The notes under the pieces are model-generated. The model was not told the DNA's origin and did no database searches. It was given only the letters and a program-made list of their open reading frames with translations. Positions 49,253 to 60,419 of a DNA stretch of 64,000 nucleotides are shown in pieces. Origin of the DNA: Pseudobdellovibrionaceae bacterium (GTDB taxonomy: Bacteria; Bdellovibrionota; Bdellovibrionia; Bdellovibrionales; Bdellovibrionaceae). A program made the position numbers and the translations under genes. The stretch spans positions 124,001-188,000 of the forward strand of contig JAHBUW010000007.1 of assembly GCA_019637875.1 (NCBI GenBank), read 5' to 3'. The stretch's first letter is position 1. Each line of letters opens with the position of its first letter.

Positions 49253-50320
49253 ATGAAAAACACCCACTTGTTCACGAAAACCATGATCGTTCTGGCGGGT
49301 TTGACTCTCGCCGCTTGTGCCTCGCAACCCCATACTCCCGAGAAGCTCGCGACCGAGCCCGCCGCGGACTCGCGTGAGGTCGGAATCAAAGCGCTGAACC
49401 GTATGGCCGGTTGCTACATCGTCGACTACAGCTACACCGAGACCGAAGCGCTGAAGAAGGGCTACCAAGTCGACAAACGCGTCTACGACGTGAACCGCGA
49501 CAAAGCGGTCAAAGAGTGGATCTATCCCGAAGAAGTGACGCCGAACCGTCTGCGCCTGCAGCACGTGATGTTCTTCACCGATAAGACCGGCAAGATGGTT
49601 GCGGGCTCGGAGCTGAAGCACCATGCGGAAGACTGGGAGTACACGGCTCCGTATTGGTATGACTTCACCGCGCCGAACACTTGGGCCGTGAAGCCTATCG
49701 ACGCGAACGGGAAGACCTGGCTCCGTCGCATCACCAATCTGGATGACGGTCTTCGCTATCAGTGTGCGGCCCAGTGGACCGGCGGCGCGAATCCCGAGTG
49801 GAAGTGCGACAACTACGCGCCGATCCCCGGCCGGGAAACTCGCGACATGAAACGTAAGGACTACCAGACGCTGGATCGTTCGACTCGCGTGATCGTGTAC
49901 GGCGACAGCTGGCTCGAGCGCCAAGACAACGTGAAGACCCTGCACGATGCGAAAGGCCGCGCGCCGCTCGCGAAAGAACTCGGTAAAAACTGGTACGTCC
50001 GCGTGCCCGATCACGAGTGCTCGGAAATCCGCGCGTGGATGGCGCCCCGTCAGGCGTTCTGGACTCTGCTCCGCGAAACTTGGGATCAAGAGCTGAACGG
50101 CCAAGCCGGCGTTCAAGAGGCGATCCCCGCTGGACAACCGCCGCGCTTCATGAAAATGGGCGAGATCGAAGACAAGTACTACAAAGAGAACCTGAAGAAT
50201 CCCGAGACACGTGAAAAAGTCCGCGCGGAAATGCTTCAAGTGATCGCGAATTACAAAAAGGCTTCGGTTGATGCGGCCGCGGCGACCGCGACCTCCAATA
50301 AACCGAGCGTGAAAAAATGA
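49253..50320 (+). CDS. DUF6607-like lipoprotein
   Basis: A 355-residue protein with lipobox TLAAC. CYIVDYSYTETEALKKGYQVDKRVYDVNRDKAVKEWIYPEE, LQHVMFF and LKHHAEDWEYTAPYWYDF resemble the DUF6607 family found in Gram-negative bacteria; the recurrent His and Trp in this region are typical. The function of the family is unknown. It overlaps a small secreted protein by ATGA, and the pair is likely one unit. Confidence 0.72.
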   Translation: MKNTHLFTKTMIVLAGLTLAACASQPHTPEKLATEPAADSREVGIKALNRMAGCYIVDYSYTETEALKKGYQVDKRVYDVNRDKAVKEWIYPEEVTPNRLRLQHVMFFTDKTGKMVAGSELKHHAEDWEYTAPYWYDFTAPNTWAVKPIDANGKTWLRRITNLDDGLRYQCAAQWTGGANPEWKCDNYAPIPGRETRDMKRKDYQTLDRSTRVIVYGDSWLERQDNVKTLHDAKGRAPLAKELGKNWYVRVPDHECSEIRAWMAPRQAFWTLLRETWDQELNGQAGVQEAIPAGQPPRFMKMGEIEDKYYKENLKNPETREKVRAEMLQVIANYKKASVDAAAATATSNKPSVKK

Positions 50321-53760: not shown

Positions 53761-55023
53761 TTAAAGCTCTTTGGGCGGCGTGCAGGGACGGAAGTGCAGG
53801 CGCTTGCGTTTGGCGTGGCGGCCCCACTCGTACCAGTCGAAGGTGACGTATTTGCCGGGCTTGATCTGATCGAAACTCCAGCGCACGTCGATGGTGGTTT
53901 CGGTTTCGGTGGTCGTCGTTTTGAAGCGGTAGTGCTCATCGAGTTCGGTCAGGACTTCCGGCAGTTTGATCTTCATTACCGAGCGCTGGCGTTTCGCGCC
54001 GACGTTCATCATCGAGCCCCAGCGCGCGCAGGACGGCGTGATCTCGAAGCTCTGCCGGATTTTGAGTTCGTCCTCTTTCGCGGGACCACGGTGGTCGATG
54101 ATGTTCACGTTGAACGGCACGAAACTTTTGTCGGCCATCTCTTTGAGGCGCGCCATGGCCAGTTTTTCGGCGGCGGCCCACGCGGGTTCCGCGGATTGAT
54201 CCAGTAATTTTTTGCGCATGTCCTCGCGGAACTTTTCGCTCAAAGAGATTTTGCACGAGGGATCGTAACCCTTGTTGAAGCCCAGAAAGCCCGTATCTAG
54301 ACAGCTGAAGTTCGTGCCGTGGCCCGAGGTGCCTTCCACTTTATCCTCGACTTCCTTGCGGACCGAGTTCGGCGCCATGATGACCGAAAGGTTCGAAACG
54401 ATGCCGATCGCCTTGCCCTCGGGGTTCAGCATGGGTGAACCCGAGTTCCCGCGCTCGATCGGGCAGCCCTGAAAGTGAATGATGGGGCTTTGGTTGTTCT
54501 GGAAGTAGGGGTTGATGACCGAGTTCTGGACGGCGGTGCACTGCACGCGGCGGATCTTGCCGCCGCCCTTCGCGTCGGGGTCCATCTTCACGATGCTGAA
54601 TTTGACGTTGTCGTCGAGCCCGGTCTGCGCCAGGTCCGCGACTTCGCGCTCGACGGGTTTCGCGAGCCGCAGGATCGCGATGTCGAGGGGGATGAATTCG
54701 TCGCCGAATTTATCCGAGATCTGCACGATCTCGTCACAGTCGCGAGATTCTTTTTTGTATTTGTCGGTTTCGGGGAAGTGGAAGGTGATCTTCCCTTTGC
54801 AACTGACCTTCGCGTGGGTCGTATCGTCGGGCATGCAGTGGCGGTTGGTGGCGATGATGTCGGGCTTCAAAAGGAAGCTCGAGCAGTTGCCGCCTTCATG
54901 ATTTTTGAGGTGCGCGAACCAGCCGGGGCAATCGGCTTTGTCTGCGCAGACGGCGACGTTCTGCGCCTGCGCGAAAGTGGGAACGCCGAAAAGGGCCGCC
55001 AGGGCGAGGATTGCGGAAAACAC
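53761..55023 (-). CDS. Secreted trypsin-like serine protease, second copy
   Basis: A 420-residue product from GTG 55023, preceded by AGGTC. A signal peptide (VFSAILALAALFGVPTFAQA) leads to a chymotrypsin-fold domain. Catalytic elements are IIATNRHC (His), IPLDIAILRL (Asp) and IERGNSGSP (Ser). Many Cys residues suggest disulfides. The C-terminal 150 residues form an additional beta-rich domain (DEHYRFKTTTTETETTIDVRWSF, KYVTFDWYEWGRHAKRKRL). It differs from the other protease in this window and may have its own substrate. Confidence 0.87.
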   Translation of the reverse strand: MFSAILALAALFGVPTFAQAQNVAVCADKADCPGWFAHLKNHEGGNCSSFLLKPDIIATNRHCMPDDTTHAKVSCKGKITFHFPETDKYKKESRDCDEIVQISDKFGDEFIPLDIAILRLAKPVEREVADLAQTGLDDNVKFSIVKMDPDAKGGGKIRRVQCTAVQNSVINPYFQNNQSPIIHFQGCPIERGNSGSPMLNPEGKAIGIVSNLSVIMAPNSVRKEVEDKVEGTSGHGTNFSCLDTGFLGFNKGYDPSCKISLSEKFREDMRKKLLDQSAEPAWAAAEKLAMARLKEMADKSFVPFNVNIIDHRGPAKEDELKIRQSFEITPSCARWGSMMNVGAKRQRSVMKIKLPEVLTELDEHYRFKTTTTETETTIDVRWSFDQIKPGKYVTFDWYEWGRHAKRKRLHFRPCTPPKEL

Positions 55024-55072: not shown

Positions 55073-55594
55073 TTACTTCGAACTTTCGCGGATGAAGAGC
55101 GTGATATGGTAACGCACGAGCGCCGCCATGTTCACGGGCTGCTCGTTGAAGGTCCACACGAGCTCTTGGAACGCGCCTTTACGGGCTTGGACCAGATGCT
55201 CTTCCATCGCGACGGTATTGGTGTTCGTCGCGGAGGGGATCGTCTGCGGAATGTAGCTCGGCCCCATGAAGTTGAAGCGGATGGACACCGCGCCGGCCTC
55301 TTTGATCGTGAAGATCATTTTGAAACCGTTGCGGAACAACATGAAGTCGGCTTGGGTCTTCGCGATACCGTAGATCTTGATGCGACCCAGGGGCGACGTC
55401 TTCATGTCGTTGAAGGCGGTCGCGGCTTCGATGATCTGCTGTTTGATCTCGGTCATGAAGCGCAAAGTTTCGCGCATGAGGGCCGGTTCGCTATCGAGTC
55501 CCAGCGACAGATCGACCATTCCGGACTCTTCCATCTGATCTTCGGCACGCACCAGATCTTTGATCCAGAAGAATTTGTCGGTCAGTTTTTCCAT
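55073..55594 (-). CDS. Soluble protein of unknown function
   Basis: A 173-residue product from ATG 55594, with GGGGGAGG just upstream. There is no signal peptide. Helices (LMRETLRFMTEIKQQIIEAATAFNDM) are followed by a beta-rich part (IKIYGIAKTQADFMLFRNGFKMIFTIKEAGAVSIRFNFMG). I recognise no family. It sits just downstream of the large zincin gene on the same strand. Confidence 0.7.
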   Translation of the reverse strand: MEKLTDKFFWIKDLVRAEDQMEESGMVDLSLGLDSEPALMRETLRFMTEIKQQIIEAATAFNDMKTSPLGRIKIYGIAKTQADFMLFRNGFKMIFTIKEAGAVSIRFNFMGPSYIPQTIPSATNTNTVAMEEHLVQARKGAFQELVWTFNEQPVNMAALVRYHITLFIRESSK

Positions 55595-55668
55595 GGGCCT
55601 CCCCCTCACCTTTCAGTTTTGGGGGAGGGGGACGCCTTGTCAACTTTGATGCGCCGTTCGGGGCGCCT

Positions 55669-58600
55669 TTAGAGAATGAGGAAGCCGCCCATACGGGGAA
55701 CGGACTCGGTATAGGGATTGGCAAAGGGCATATAGATGCCAAATCCGAACTGAATCGGGAAGTGGTAGCCGACGTTGACGTCAAAACGGGTTTCAAAGCC
55801 CGCGCTCCAGTAGCCCGTCCCTTCCGAACGGCGGTAGGTCATCGGGGTCGATTTTTCGTCATAAATCAGCCCGTCGACGAAGGTTCCGTCGGCGACGATC
55901 GCCCCATGCCAGCGGTGCGCATAGAAGGGATATCCATCGAACCCCTTGTCCAATCGACCGAAGGGCAGGCGATATTCGGCGTTGATGCCCAGAATATTCC
56001 GTCCCATGAGGCTTCCGCTTGAAAAACCGCGATTCAGATATTGGGGGATCAGCGAATTTGAGGTCGTTTGATTGGCGACGCTTTGATCCATGGTGCTGAC
56101 ATTCCAAGGCTCGTCGCTGGTCCGCGCTTGGCCTTTCAGCATCAGCACATGACGCTTCGGCAACCATCTCGAGAAGTAGTAGGCACCCGAAGCTTCGGCC
56201 ACATGGACGATGCGATTCAGGTCTTTCAACTTGCCGGGCACGTAGCTCAGAGAACCGACCCAACCCGACTCCGGCGAAATCTGATCGCCGTACTGAAAGG
56301 CATTTCGGTAGGTGGTGGCGAATCGAGCGTAGGTGCGTTCGATGTTTTGTCCGAAACGTTCATTTCCACCCTGTCCTCCGCCGAAACCGACGGTCCAATA
56401 AGGGCTTTGGTTTTCCATCGTCCAGTAGCTGACGAAGGATGTGGAATAGACGCGTGAGTACTGACCGCGCGTCGCCATTTGCAGGGACTGGTCGTAAGAG
56501 GTGATCGAAATGACGGGGTAGAAGCTTTGGTTTGTATAGCTCGCCAGATAACTTCCGCGTTGAATCGCCGAGTCGTACTGAGCTGACAAACTGTAAATGT
56601 GTTTTCCCAAGGGATCCGAGCCTTGGGTCAGCGCCGAAACGTAAACTCCGAGATCGTCCCACGCCACGAAGGGCAGCCAGAAGCGCGGCCACAGATAGCC
56701 CCAAGGGCTGTAGTCTTCCGACTGCGACGCCAAAGAGACGCCGGTGGGCTCCGTGACGGTCACGTGGGTCGCCTCGCCGGATTGATTGTCGATCTTGTGC
56801 GCTTCCTTGAGGGCTTCACCGGCCCCGAGTTTGGCGGGGGCGGCGACGGCATCGCCCTCGACGCCGACCGCTTTGCCGCTGGAGAAGGGCAGGGTGTAGG
56901 GCGCGTAACGATCGCCCCAGAAGTTGCCGACGACGGGAAGTGCCGCGGGCAAGGTTTGCGCTTCGGCTTCCGTCACGGTTTTGAGTTGATAAGCTTCCTC
57001 GGTGATTTCGGTGTAGTAGTAACGATCCAGCCAGCGGTCGTAAGTCGACCCCAAAATGTGGGAAACGACGTGCGTGACCGGGCGACCGTTTTTGAAGTCT
57101 CGGTCGGTGCGGTAAAGGTTGCGCACGCCGTTCTGTGAAGACGTGAACAGGACGCGGTCGCCAAGGACGGTCAGGAATTGCGGATCTTTCCACTCATCCA
57201 AGACTTTTTCGCTGACGCCGGTGTCGATATTCAGCTTGAGGACTTGTTCGCGTCCCTCGCTACGAAGCGAGAAAAGCAGTGTCGAGGTGTCGAGCCAGAC
57301 GGGGAAGCTCACGCGCCCTTGCGGGGGCGCCTCGAAGACGCGTTTGATTTCTTTCGTGTCCACGTTGAAGACCGAAAGATCGGTGCGGCCGGGAACGATC
57401 TGGGTGAACGCGATTTTCGAACCATCCGGAGCGTAGGCGGGTTCGCGTGCGCGCGCATCTTTCGTCAGCTGTTCGGCTTTGCCGCGGACCAGATCGAAAC
57501 TCCAGATGTCGGACACTTCACGGTAGCGATTCTTGAGGAGGACCTGGTCGAAGATGAATGAATTCGAACTCGGATGCCAGCTAATGCGGGTGATGTTTCC
57601 GCCGGGAGGCGCGTCGGGACCATGATCGCCGCCGTGATCGTCCCCGTCGGGCCCGTGTTGCAAAGATCCGCGCGGAATCGGCGAACCCGAGGGCATCGAC
57701 TGATCGAAAGCCTTTCCGAAAATCGCGACACGTTGAGAGGGCTCGAATAGGACCGAGGTCTGCGGGCGCACCAAGACTTGGACGCTCCGGCGAAGCGACG
57801 CGTTCTTCGCGACATAAGCCAGTTTCAAGCCGTCGGGACTGATCGCGGGCGAGAGGCTCTCGCGCATTTCGGAGTCGACCTTCACTCCCGGCGAAAGCGG
57901 CGTCGCCGCAAGGGTCGCGACTTCCGCTTTCGCGGCGTCGACCATTTTCTTTTTTGTCTCTTCAAAGAGCTGAACCATGTTACGGCCGCCGAAGACGGGT
58001 TCAAACGCGCCGTCCAGAAGCCACGGCACGCGGCCGCCGGTGTTGTTGTGCAGATCGCGAACGGTGTGGTCGCCGTAAGAGTTGATCCAGTCGCTCCACA
58101 TCAGACTTCCGTACAGATATGGACGCGAACCGTAGGGCCAAGTCGTGATATCGAATTCGTTGATTTCGGCTTGGCGAACTTCGTCGAGTTTTCCCGCCGC
58201 GCCGAGGGAACGCAGGATTCCCGCCTGCATCTTCGAACGCAGGCGACCACCTTTTGAGAAACGGGTTTCGTGATCGACCGCCGCGCCTTCGAGGGACCAG
58301 CGGGGAAGCAGGGCGTTCGGCGTCATGATCGAACCGAACAGGTAGGACAGTCCCCAAACCACGCCGCGGCGTTGATTCATCTCCAGGGTGTGTGTGTATT
58401 CATGAACGCTGATCTCCCACGCCCAGTCGTGGTACTCGCCGATGGAGTCCTGCGGACCCGGGACGACCGGGAAGATCATGATCAGATTGTAAGGGAGGAA
58501 AGTGGCGTAACCATTCGTCAGATCCGTGCGGTCGTTCAGGACGAACACGGTCTTGGGGGGAATTGTGACCCAGTGGGCCTTGTAGATCGGGGTCAACGCC

Positions 58601-58797
58601 TTCAGACGTTCGGCGTAGATCTCGGCCAATTGCTGATTCTCTGCATCATAAATCAGGTCGAAATGCCCGAGATGCAGCGTCCGCCAGCTTTTGTACGGAT
58701 TCACTTGGGCCGAGGCCGCGAAGGCGATCCATCCCGTGAAGAGAAATGTGAGTGCGGCCTTCATCAACGTATTTTGATTTTTCATTCGAGTGGCCAT
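55669..58797 (-). CDS. Metalloprotease-like, TolB-propeller and outer-membrane barrel fusion protein
   Basis: A 1042-residue protein. ATG 58797 starts MATRMKNQ with a signal peptide ending FAASAQ. Mature residues about 30-300 form a gluzincin (peptidase MA-like) domain with SVHEYTHTLEM (HExxH about residues 108-112) and the third ligand in SLEGAAVDHE (about residue 146). Residues about 300-640 carry TolB/WD-type blades (SPAISPDGLKLAYVAKNAS, EPAYAPDGSKIAFTQIV). From about 690 to the end, aromatic alternating strands (YSLSAQYDSAIQRGSYLASY, YPVISITSYD) and a terminal FGIYMPF suggest an outer-membrane beta-barrel. Confidence 0.82.
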   Translation of the reverse strand: MATRMKNQNTLMKAALTFLFTGWIAFAASAQVNPYKSWRTLHLGHFDLIYDAENQQLAEIYAERLKALTPIYKAHWVTIPPKTVFVLNDRTDLTNGYATFLPYNLIMIFPVVPGPQDSIGEYHDWAWEISVHEYTHTLEMNQRRGVVWGLSYLFGSIMTPNALLPRWSLEGAAVDHETRFSKGGRLRSKMQAGILRSLGAAGKLDEVRQAEINEFDITTWPYGSRPYLYGSLMWSDWINSYGDHTVRDLHNNTGGRVPWLLDGAFEPVFGGRNMVQLFEETKKKMVDAAKAEVATLAATPLSPGVKVDSEMRESLSPAISPDGLKLAYVAKNASLRRSVQVLVRPQTSVLFEPSQRVAIFGKAFDQSMPSGSPIPRGSLQHGPDGDDHGGDHGPDAPPGGNITRISWHPSSNSFIFDQVLLKNRYREVSDIWSFDLVRGKAEQLTKDARAREPAYAPDGSKIAFTQIVPGRTDLSVFNVDTKEIKRVFEAPPQGRVSFPVWLDTSTLLFSLRSEGREQVLKLNIDTGVSEKVLDEWKDPQFLTVLGDRVLFTSSQNGVRNLYRTDRDFKNGRPVTHVVSHILGSTYDRWLDRYYYTEITEEAYQLKTVTEAEAQTLPAALPVVGNFWGDRYAPYTLPFSSGKAVGVEGDAVAAPAKLGAGEALKEAHKIDNQSGEATHVTVTEPTGVSLASQSEDYSPWGYLWPRFWLPFVAWDDLGVYVSALTQGSDPLGKHIYSLSAQYDSAIQRGSYLASYTNQSFYPVISITSYDQSLQMATRGQYSRVYSTSFVSYWTMENQSPYWTVGFGGGQGGNERFGQNIERTYARFATTYRNAFQYGDQISPESGWVGSLSYVPGKLKDLNRIVHVAEASGAYYFSRWLPKRHVLMLKGQARTSDEPWNVSTMDQSVANQTTSNSLIPQYLNRGFSSGSLMGRNILGINAEYRLPFGRLDKGFDGYPFYAHRWHGAIVADGTFVDGLIYDEKSTPMTYRRSEGTGYWSAGFETRFDVNVGYHFPIQFGFGIYMPFANPYTESVPRMGGFLIL

Positions 58798-58817
58798 TGC
58801 AGCATGGCCCCAAATAT

Positions 58818-58846
58818 TTGACAACACGGGAGGGTTTAAGAATGAT
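58818..58846 (+). promoter_or_regulatory. Sigma-70-type promoter for pal
   Basis: Perfect TTGACA (58818-58823), a 17-base spacer and AATGAT (58841-58846). A start near 58853 would leave a short leader with GGAGG at 58859-58863. Confidence 0.75.
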
Positions 58847-58871
58847 GTCACTTCCAACGGAGGTTTCAACA

Positions 58872-59390
58872 GTGCGAGTACAATCTTTGATCGTGAAGTC
58901 GGTTCTGGCAGCGGGTTTGGTTTTGGCTTTGGGTGCGTGCGGATCTAAAAAAACCACAACGGACGCCGCAGCAGGTGACGGCGGCTCGGGCTCGCCTTCC
59001 ATTGAAAACACCCCCATGACTTTCGCCGCTGAAGGCAGCGACAGCGGTAAAATCGACGGTCTGCAAACCATCAACTTCGATTACGACAAAGCCGCATTGT
59101 CCGCGGACGCGCGTTCGAAGATCCAAGGCAACGCCGAGTGGCTCAAAGCCCGCGCGAACGTCGGTCTGCAAATCGAAGGTCACTGCGACAATCGCGGTTC
59201 GATCGAATACAACCTTTCGTTGGGTGAGCGCCGCGCACAAGCCGTGAAGAACTACATGGTCAGCCTGGGTGTTGCGGGCGATCGTTTGAGCGTCATCAGC
59301 TACGGTAAAGAGAAGCCGCTGGCTCAAGGCGATAGCGAGTCGGACATGGCGAAAAACCGCCGTGCGAACTTCCTGCCCTTGAATCGGTAA
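58872..59390 (+). CDS. pal: Peptidoglycan-associated lipoprotein
   Basis: GTG 58872 has GGAGG 8 bases upstream; upstream ATGs would lack an SD and a signal. The 172-residue product has lipobox LALGAC, a polar linker, then an OmpA-like domain: INFDYDKAALSADARSKIQGNAEWL, IEGHCDNRGSIEYNLSLGERRAQAVKNYM, ISYGKEKPLA and NRRANF. This matches Pal, which binds peptidoglycan from the outer membrane as part of Tol-Pal. DUF4398 and cpoB genes follow; tolQRAB are not in the window. Confidence 0.93.
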   Translation: MRVQSLIVKSVLAAGLVLALGACGSKKTTTDAAAGDGGSGSPSIENTPMTFAAEGSDSGKIDGLQTINFDYDKAALSADARSKIQGNAEWLKARANVGLQIEGHCDNRGSIEYNLSLGERRAQAVKNYMVSLGVAGDRLSVISYGKEKPLAQGDSESDMAKNRRANFLPLNR

Positions 59391-59767
59391 TGGTTCAGAA
59401 AAGTCTTCGTTCTAGTTGTCGGCCCGCGGGGCCGCTTCATTTCGGCGGCGCCCTGAGACTTGTGCTCAGTGGCGCTTTTCTCGTTCTGGGCTCCTTTTTG
59501 AGCGTGGGCTGTTCCACGATTCCCGCTCCGGTCCAGGACTATGCTCTGGCACGCGCGGCCCTCGAGGCTTGTAAAGCCGTGGAAGCTGCGCGATACTCTC
59601 AAGGTTACTATCACCGTGGTCTTGAGAATTACGCCCGCGCCGAGGTTTTGTACCGTGAACGCGAGTATCAAGAGGCCCGGGAACTTTTCGTCCGGGCGCG
59701 GCTGGATTTCGAGAAAGCCGAAAACTCGGCACAAGTGCAGAGGAAGAAAAGTGGGGAAGTTCTTTAA
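59390..59767 (+). CDS. DUF4398-type lipoprotein
   Basis: A 125-residue product overlapping the pal stop by one base. SVGCSTIPAPVQDYALARAALEACKAVEAARYSQGYYHRGLENYARAEVLYREREYQEARELFVRARLDFEKAE fits DUF4398, helical with an N-terminal lipobox (LSVGC) preceded by a hydrophobic stretch. It overlaps cpoB by 17 bases, so the three genes are coupled. Confidence 0.85.
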   Translation: MVQKSLRSSCRPAGPLHFGGALRLVLSGAFLVLGSFLSVGCSTIPAPVQDYALARAALEACKAVEAARYSQGYYHRGLENYARAEVLYREREYQEARELFVRARLDFEKAENSAQVQRKKSGEVL

Positions 59768-60419
59768 AGTCTTTCAAGTGGCGACGTTGGCGTTTCTTCT
59801 GACCGGCTTGACCGGTTGTTTGGTCACCCGCAACGAAGCCCGCGAAGTCGAGCGTCGCAGCCAAGATCAAGTCACGACCATGCAAAAGGCCAACGCCGAT
59901 CAGTCCAATCGCTTCAACGATGTGGATGCGGAAATGCGTTCGTTGAACGGTCGTATCGAGGTTTTGGAAAATCGCATGCAGCAGGTTCAAGCCCAGGCGT
60001 CCAGCCAGCAGGGGATGGATGCCGCACGTGGGGCCGAACTTGAACGTCGCGTGACGCTTTTGCAGGACGAGATCAAGCGCCTGAGCGATCTTTTGGACGC
60101 GACGGTGATGGAAGTCGGCGCACTGAAGGCGGGGGCGACGGCCGCCGTTCCCGAAGCGACCGGAAAAAAAGGGGCCTACGAAATCGCGGAAGAACTCTTC
60201 GGAAAAAAAGAGTGGCGCAAAGCCGTTCTCGCTTTCCAAAAGTTCCGTGATGAAAATCCGAAAAGTAAACGCTTCCCCAAGGCCACGCTGCGTATCGGGC
60301 AAGCTTTCCAGGAACTCGGGATGAAGGACGACGCGAAGACTTTCCTTGAGGAAGTCATCTCGAAGTATCCCAGCAGCGACGAGGCCAAGCAGGCCAAGAC
60401 CTTGTTGAAAAAGAAGTAA
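59751..60419 (+). CDS. cpoB: Cell division coordinator CpoB-like protein (YbgF)
   Basis: GTG 59751 follows AGGAAGAAAA; the product has 222 residues. Lipobox LTGC, a coiled coil (DVDAEMRSLNGRIEVLENRMQQVQAQ) and C-terminal TPR-like repeats (YEIAEELFGKKEWRKAVLAFQKFRDENPKSKRFPKATLRIGQAF) match CpoB/YbgF, which links Tol-Pal with peptidoglycan synthesis at division. E. coli CpoB is a soluble periplasmic protein, so a lipidated form would be a variation. Confidence 0.88.
   Translation: MGKFFKVFQVATLAFLLTGLTGCLVTRNEAREVERRSQDQVTTMQKANADQSNRFNDVDAEMRSLNGRIEVLENRMQQVQAQASSQQGMDAARGAELERRVTLLQDEIKRLSDLLDATVMEVGALKAGATAAVPEATGKKGAYEIAEELFGKKEWRKAVLAFQKFRDENPKSKRFPKATLRIGQAFQELGMKDDAKTFLEEVISKYPSSDEAKQAKTLLKKK

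Follow-up and report, generated by a model that had tools for sequence, protein, structure and literature searches.

A predicted metalloprotease domain on a WD40-Omp85-like outer-membrane protein that is near-universal in the Bdellovibrionota

In Omp85 proteins, the front domains ahead of the barrel are periplasmic, and the RGF/RGY motif of loop 6 in the barrel is a defining motif of the Omp85/TpsB superfamily. Among the peptidases of the envelope, BepA belongs to family M48 and carries TPR repeats. This soluble E. coli enzyme is a periplasmic zinc peptidase that sorts LptD at the BAM complex (PMC8423444) and acts in the quality control of outer-membrane protein (OMP) assembly. Ten Omp85/TpsB subfamilies were distinguished by Heinz and Lithgow in 2014, including a WD40-Omp85 class in which a TolB-like propeller stands ahead of a POTRA-less Omp85 barrel and which they likened to a fusion of BamA and BamB (PMC4104836). 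The main-text sections on subfamilies in that paper mention no protease in the WD40-Omp85 class, and its separate "Metallo" (Omp85-metalloprotease) class is defined by PF00149. Since PF00149 is Metallophos in the Pfam library, a different domain from the protease described here, the name of the latter class seems to be a misnomer. Little is understood of the Omp85 proteins that bear enzyme domains, although they belong to a superfamily with essential members; a closely studied example is the patatin-Omp85 protein PlpD of Pseudomonas aeruginosa, whose patatin domain was long thought to be delivered to the cell surface but was shown by experiment to be periplasmic (PMC11116518).

The gene described here lies in a 64,000-nucleotide stretch of a Pseudobdellovibrionaceae genome (contig JAHBUW010000007.1; hereafter the window) and encodes a protein of 1042 residues (Table 1). 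Its anatomy is close to certain on sequence comparison and structure models and comprises a signal peptide, a gluzincin domain with an intact active site, a TolB-like propeller and a POTRA-less Omp85-type barrel. The propeller directly precedes the Omp85 barrel without any POTRA domain, as in the WD40-Omp85 class of PMC4104836, from which the window protein differs by the gluzincin domain in front of the propeller. Judged by predicted fold and conserved site, it is an Omp85 metalloprotease in a class that the subfamily sections of PMC4104836 do not describe as such; the propeller and Omp85 half is known already, and the protease domain on this architecture appears to be new. We give about even odds (roughly 50%) to the reading that the protein is a zinc peptidase of the WD40-Omp85 type, anchored in the outer membrane and facing the periplasm, that serves envelope upkeep at the interface of Tol-Pal and OMP assembly.

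Table 1. Features of the gene and its surroundings, in window coordinates
Feature	Position	Strand	Basis or remark
Entire gene, for 1042 aa with a signal peptide, a gluzincin protease, a propeller and an Omp85-type barrel (predicted)	55669..58797	-	ORF and structure model
Signal peptide, residues 1-30	58708..58797	-	by eye on the sequence, no predictor
Protease domain, residues 31-300	57898..58707	-	domain model and gluzincin fold matches
HEYTH, residues 132-136: H132 and H136 as predicted zinc ligands, E133 as predicted catalytic base	58390..58404	-	invariant 34/34 and 38/38
WSLEGAA, residues 167-173: predicted third zinc ligand E170	58279..58299	-	E170 and G171 invariant 34/34 and 38/38
Y227, candidate transition-state Tyr	58117..58119	-	invariant 34/34 and 38/38
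Six-bladed TolB-like propeller, residues 305-632	56902..57885	-	profile, PDB sequence and fold matches
His/Asp-rich insert, residues 380-394	57616..57660	-	
RARE loop of the propeller	57442..57453	-	R449 invariant 34/34; aligned with the TolB RHNGA stretch
Linker, residues 633-701	56695..56901	-	full-length model, mostly low confidence
16-stranded Omp85-type barrel, residues 702-1042	55672..56694	-	model, fold and profile matches
RGF, residues 923-925: loop-6 motif of the Omp85 type, placed between strands 11 and 12	56023..56031	-	conservation and BamA alignment
pal, divergent neighbour, OmpA family	58752..59390	+	TIGR02802 121.5 bits, just below the cut-off of 125.35
ybgF/cpoB homologue	59541..60419	+	214 bits with NF053852 "CpoB-like predatory vesicle lipoprotein", below its cut-off of 250
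Conserved 178-aa protein	55073..55609	-	same strand, some 60 bases downstream; adjoins the window gene in most Bdellovibrionales loci
Trypsin-like serine protease	53761..55023	-	Pfam Trypsin E 4e-14
DUF6607 protein	49253..50320	+	

The coding region begins with an ATG at 58797, while the mechanical ORF extends to 58869; M1, M5 and M12 are all candidate starts, and M12 may be the true one. By eye, the signal peptide ends in ASA, with cleavage expected ahead of Q31. A full-length AlphaFold2 model built with 23 sequences reached a pLDDT of 79.7 and a pTM of 0.82. Structure prediction, which the first-pass annotation had proposed as a check on its protease, propeller and barrel, supports each domain, and the zinc site gains support from the predicted fold together with conserved residues.

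The same annotation had picked out HEYTH and the glutamate of a downstream SLEGAA as the protease site, and had named non-conserved His/Glu ligands as an argument against it. Both motifs lie in the open reading frame, and H132, E133, H136, E170, G171, E177, R185 and Y227 are invariant in all 34 full-length sequences from the order (the window protein and 33 relatives that are 22-39% identical to it) and again in all 38 members of a wider set (28 ORFs drawn from this and one other phylum, 9 further paralogs and the window protein itself). A chance HExxH was rejected because H132, E133, H136, E170 and G171 are invariant across these relatives. In the full-length model, residues ~31-300 are mostly helical, with the HExxH in helix 125-140 and the WSLEGAA glutamate in helix 166-179, so that the arrangement typical of gluzincins, an HExxH with a downstream Glu in a following helix, is predicted for a site present in 38 of 38 sequences. 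Y227 would be the transition-state Tyr, a role that we assume by likeness to M1 and M30 peptidases.

Modelled alone, the protease domain gave middling confidence (pLDDT 75.9, pTM 0.77). All 50 matches listed in its fold comparison are gluzincins except two TFIID entries, and among them are lugdulysin of family M30 (Z 14.4, rmsd 5.0, 237 residues aligned), the M1 enzymes IRAP, APN and LTA4H, and M9 collagenases; Foldseek likewise returned LTA4H (8.5e-5) and collagenase T (1.9e-4). Because helical folds may attain Z scores of 13-14 through chance arrangement, the case for a gluzincin rests on these fold matches and the conserved site taken together. Membership in one of the named Pfam peptidase families M1, M9, M30 or M61 was rejected: none of the 34 members has a significant family match, the best being M9 (E 0.0059, in 7/34) and M61 (E 0.036, in 2/34), neither the M1 nor the M30 model is among the matches, and the protease profile found 0 matches among PDB sequences. 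The domain is, by predicted fold and site, of the gluzincin type but a family of its own, which shares fold and the HExxH...EG site with M30, M1 and M9 enzymes and differs from them by the absence of significant Pfam or PDB sequence matches and by a gap of 33 residues between HExxH and Glu.

The TolB-type blades of the annotation were borne out by a PD40 match, a partial match to the TolB model and, by sequence, a match of the propeller alone to TolB in the PDB (E ~1e-13). We count six blades on the full-length model, and TolB is also the closest propeller by fold comparison (3iax_A, Z 25.5, rmsd 2.5, 242 aligned). While the window protein and TolB have this propeller fold in common, the possibility that the window protein is itself TolB was rejected: it scores 50.8 bits with the TolB equivalog model TIGR02800 against a cut-off of 343.15, it has a membrane barrel attached, and the genome encodes a true TolB elsewhere (G000:C2:222863, 354.4 bits). 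In TolB, mutations in the RHNGA stretch disturb Pal binding. The window protein has different residues at this position, a point that we counted against the best explanation, within a RARE loop in which R449 is invariant. As a separate observation, the loop preceding the second blade holds a His/Asp-rich insert. In its columns, no row among the other 33 of the alignment has at least two His, and the insert may be a loop with which this species binds metal.

The absence of a barrel from the C-terminal third had been named as another argument against the annotation, and here, too, the prediction held up. The model places 16 strands in residues 702-1042, in line with the C-terminal 16-stranded barrel of the superfamily, and the closest folds are those of BamA (8xnb_A, Z 23.2, rmsd 3.7, 306 aligned) and TamA (8us1, Z 22.1, rmsd 3.5, 284 aligned). 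A profile of 58 family barrels aligned by hhalign with one of 20 Bdellovibrionales BamA barrels (P 95.9, E 5.7e-9, 287 columns) and with 10 TamA-like barrels (P 95.4), whereas reversed profiles gave P 0.2-0.4 (reversed BamA 0.2) and the protease profile 0.1; the narrower barrel profile A5 alone gave P 18.7 to BamA and 86.1 to TamA. The RGF motif aligns with LRGY of BamA and sits between strands 884-894 and 930-952, with R923 present in 34/34 and G924 in at least 90% of the 34-sequence set (R in 30/38 and G in 32/38 of the wider set). Searches with the barrel profile against PDB sequences returned chance-level matches only. As 0/34 family barrels match the Pfam Omp85 model (PF01103) over its curated cut-off, we do not file the barrel under that family; in a search of the source genome the model matched three other places and not the window gene, and no other family model recognises the barrel either. 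Taken together, profile comparison and model assign the barrel to the Omp85 (BamA/TamA) type.

Such a barrel with its loop-6 motif invites the reading that the protein is an OMP-assembly or translocation factor like BamA or TamA, with propeller and protease domain acting mainly as a client dock and proteolysis secondary, and the comparison of WD40-Omp85 with a BamA-BamB fusion (PMC4104836) points the same way. We consider this rather doubtful, because conservation is highest in the protease (the commonest residue has a mean share of 0.53 there, compared to 0.415 in the propeller and 0.418 in the barrel), because the RGF/RGY motif is missing in the f17 branch and in several paralogs while the active site is retained in 38/38, and because no POTRA domain is visible in linker 633-701 of the full-length model.

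The family is near-universal in the phylum, i.e., near-core. All 39 genomes of near relatives match, a few with a diverged or partial copy only, and the protease profile detects 128 of 144 genomes of the phylum (114/122 among those of good quality), so the protein is no oddity of a single genome, an idea that we rejected on these counts. The architecture had been called unusual in the first-pass annotation: its three parts are real, but the propeller and Omp85 half is published and the protease is widespread. A search for the same fusion in other phyla, as the annotation suggested, found the protease domain in 8/200 genomes of one other phylum, with seven full copies that form one group with support 97 in a quick, midpoint-rooted tree with several long branches, from which the cut-off copy L166 was left out. 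Among 28 protease-bearing ORFs from these wider groups, HExxH is present in every one and a barrel profile match in 25; the three others are L166 and the paralogs L145 and L147. A scan of named collections yielded 23 loci, mostly from Bdellovibrio or Bdellovibrionaceae and including B. bacteriovorus strain kdesi, one of which (L090) has a TolB-type match only, and a search of plasmids gave short propeller matches only, mostly to TolB. Paralogs with the same protease site fall into two diverged groups (L147, L145, L056, L057 and L054; L051-L053, L055 and L059).

The first-pass annotation had left open whether the protease is a surface or a periplasmic one. Very probably, the barrel is seated in the outer membrane and the two front domains project into the periplasm, a placement based on the periplasmic front domains of Omp85 proteins as shown experimentally for PlpD (PMC11116518). 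Like the window protein, PlpD has an enzyme domain fused to an Omp85 barrel, though it carries a lipase domain and one POTRA instead of a protease and a propeller without POTRA. Alternatively, the protein might be a protease displayed at or released from the cell surface, its front domains exported by its own barrel to act on proteins of the prey or the medium; the fold class does include secreted collagenases and M30 enzymes, the lineage includes predators, and CpoB, which has a homologue in this gene neighbourhood, finally resides in a vesicle that stays behind in the prey (PMC10769870). We regard this as quite unlikely, since a pair of folded domains of 600 residues would have to cross the barrel, the once-proposed outward location of the PlpD enzyme domain proved wrong (PMC11116518), and the family is near-universal in its phylum and present in some genomes of another. 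For the same reason of wide distribution, the prey-specific role that the annotation had considered is unsupported; the conserved neighbours pal and ybgF/cpoB, which belong to the genes for linking outer membrane and cell wall, point to envelope upkeep.

In the usual Bdellovibrionales order, the 178-aa gene, whose product has no Pfam or NCBIfam match, and the window gene are followed divergently by pal, DUF4398, ybgF/cpoB, tsaD, ksgA and smpB. The pal ORF overlaps the window gene, but translation of the lipoprotein probably begins near 58842, so that the two genes would stand head-to-head with a short gap. Divergent pal is found at 26/27 order-level loci (19/20 in L031-L050 and 7/7 in L060-L066), a count that covers 27 loci and not every one of the 39 near-relative genomes. 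Outside the order, the 18 non-paralog loci in L129-L148 divide into 5 with a divergent pal nearby (440 to 1541 bases between match starts), 1 with pal at a distance of 4.7 kb in the same orientation and 12 without pal in the fetched stretch. The gene was also not found at the 8 loci of the other phylum, nor beside paralogs of either group in the stretches fetched (L145, L147 and L051-L059), although its absence at L051-L059 says little because only small flanks were fetched there. The link to pal is strong within the order and partial beyond; as tsaD-ksgA-smpB are kept there too, it could be inherited, and may be merely conserved, gene order.

The head-to-head pal gene, together with a propeller closest to TolB and an invariant R449 loop at the RHNGA position, could also mean that the protein is a Tol-Pal accessory that uses its propeller to bind Pal and anchor the outer membrane while the protease trims Pal, CpoB or peptidoglycan-linked proteins. 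This seems somewhat unlikely given that the genome has its own TolB, that the gene adjacency is missing in most other families of the phylum and that the actual residues of the TolB loop are not retained. The neighbouring CpoB homologue is of interest because CpoB of B. bacteriovorus (Bd0635), a possibly essential protein, accumulates in the vesicle that stays behind in the prey (PMC10769870); the CpoB connection of the window gene is guilt by neighbourhood only. An improbable elaboration would make the protein a membrane-fixed Pal-docking protease: the propeller would hold Pal from the side of the outer membrane, and the zinc site would cut the Tol-Pal/CpoB tether, so that the outer membrane could come away locally during division and, among predators, for the invasion vesicle that collects CpoB.

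For the periplasm-facing peptidase of the WD40-Omp85 kind that we favour, we infer every functional step. The barrel would anchor the protein in the outer membrane, with protease and propeller on the periplasmic side. A partner, most likely Pal or an OMP-assembly intermediate, would dock at the face of the propeller that carries the R449 loop, and the protease would cut proteins held at the propeller. The protein might work like BepA but built permanently onto an Omp85 barrel, a proposed likeness of function and not of kinship, as BepA is of a different family. Its role would be envelope upkeep across the phylum and not prey attack as such; this function in docking and cleavage is a tentative proposal, with somewhat less than even chances. 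Our literature search, which was not exhaustive at the level of full texts, found neither a protease-propeller-Omp85 chain nor an experiment on any member. With a fully conserved protease site on an Omp85 barrel, in a near-core protein of the phylum encoded beside pal and cpoB, this family opens WD40-Omp85 function to experiments in Bdellovibrio and is a reason to re-examine the class for an overlooked protease domain. No paper naming the HD100 locus tags Bd0636-Bd0639 came up in that search; the ortholog of B. bacteriovorus HD100 would probably lie near these tags. Elsewhere in the window, the gene for a trypsin-like serine protease lies two genes downstream of the window gene, and a DUF6607 protein is encoded on the opposite strand.
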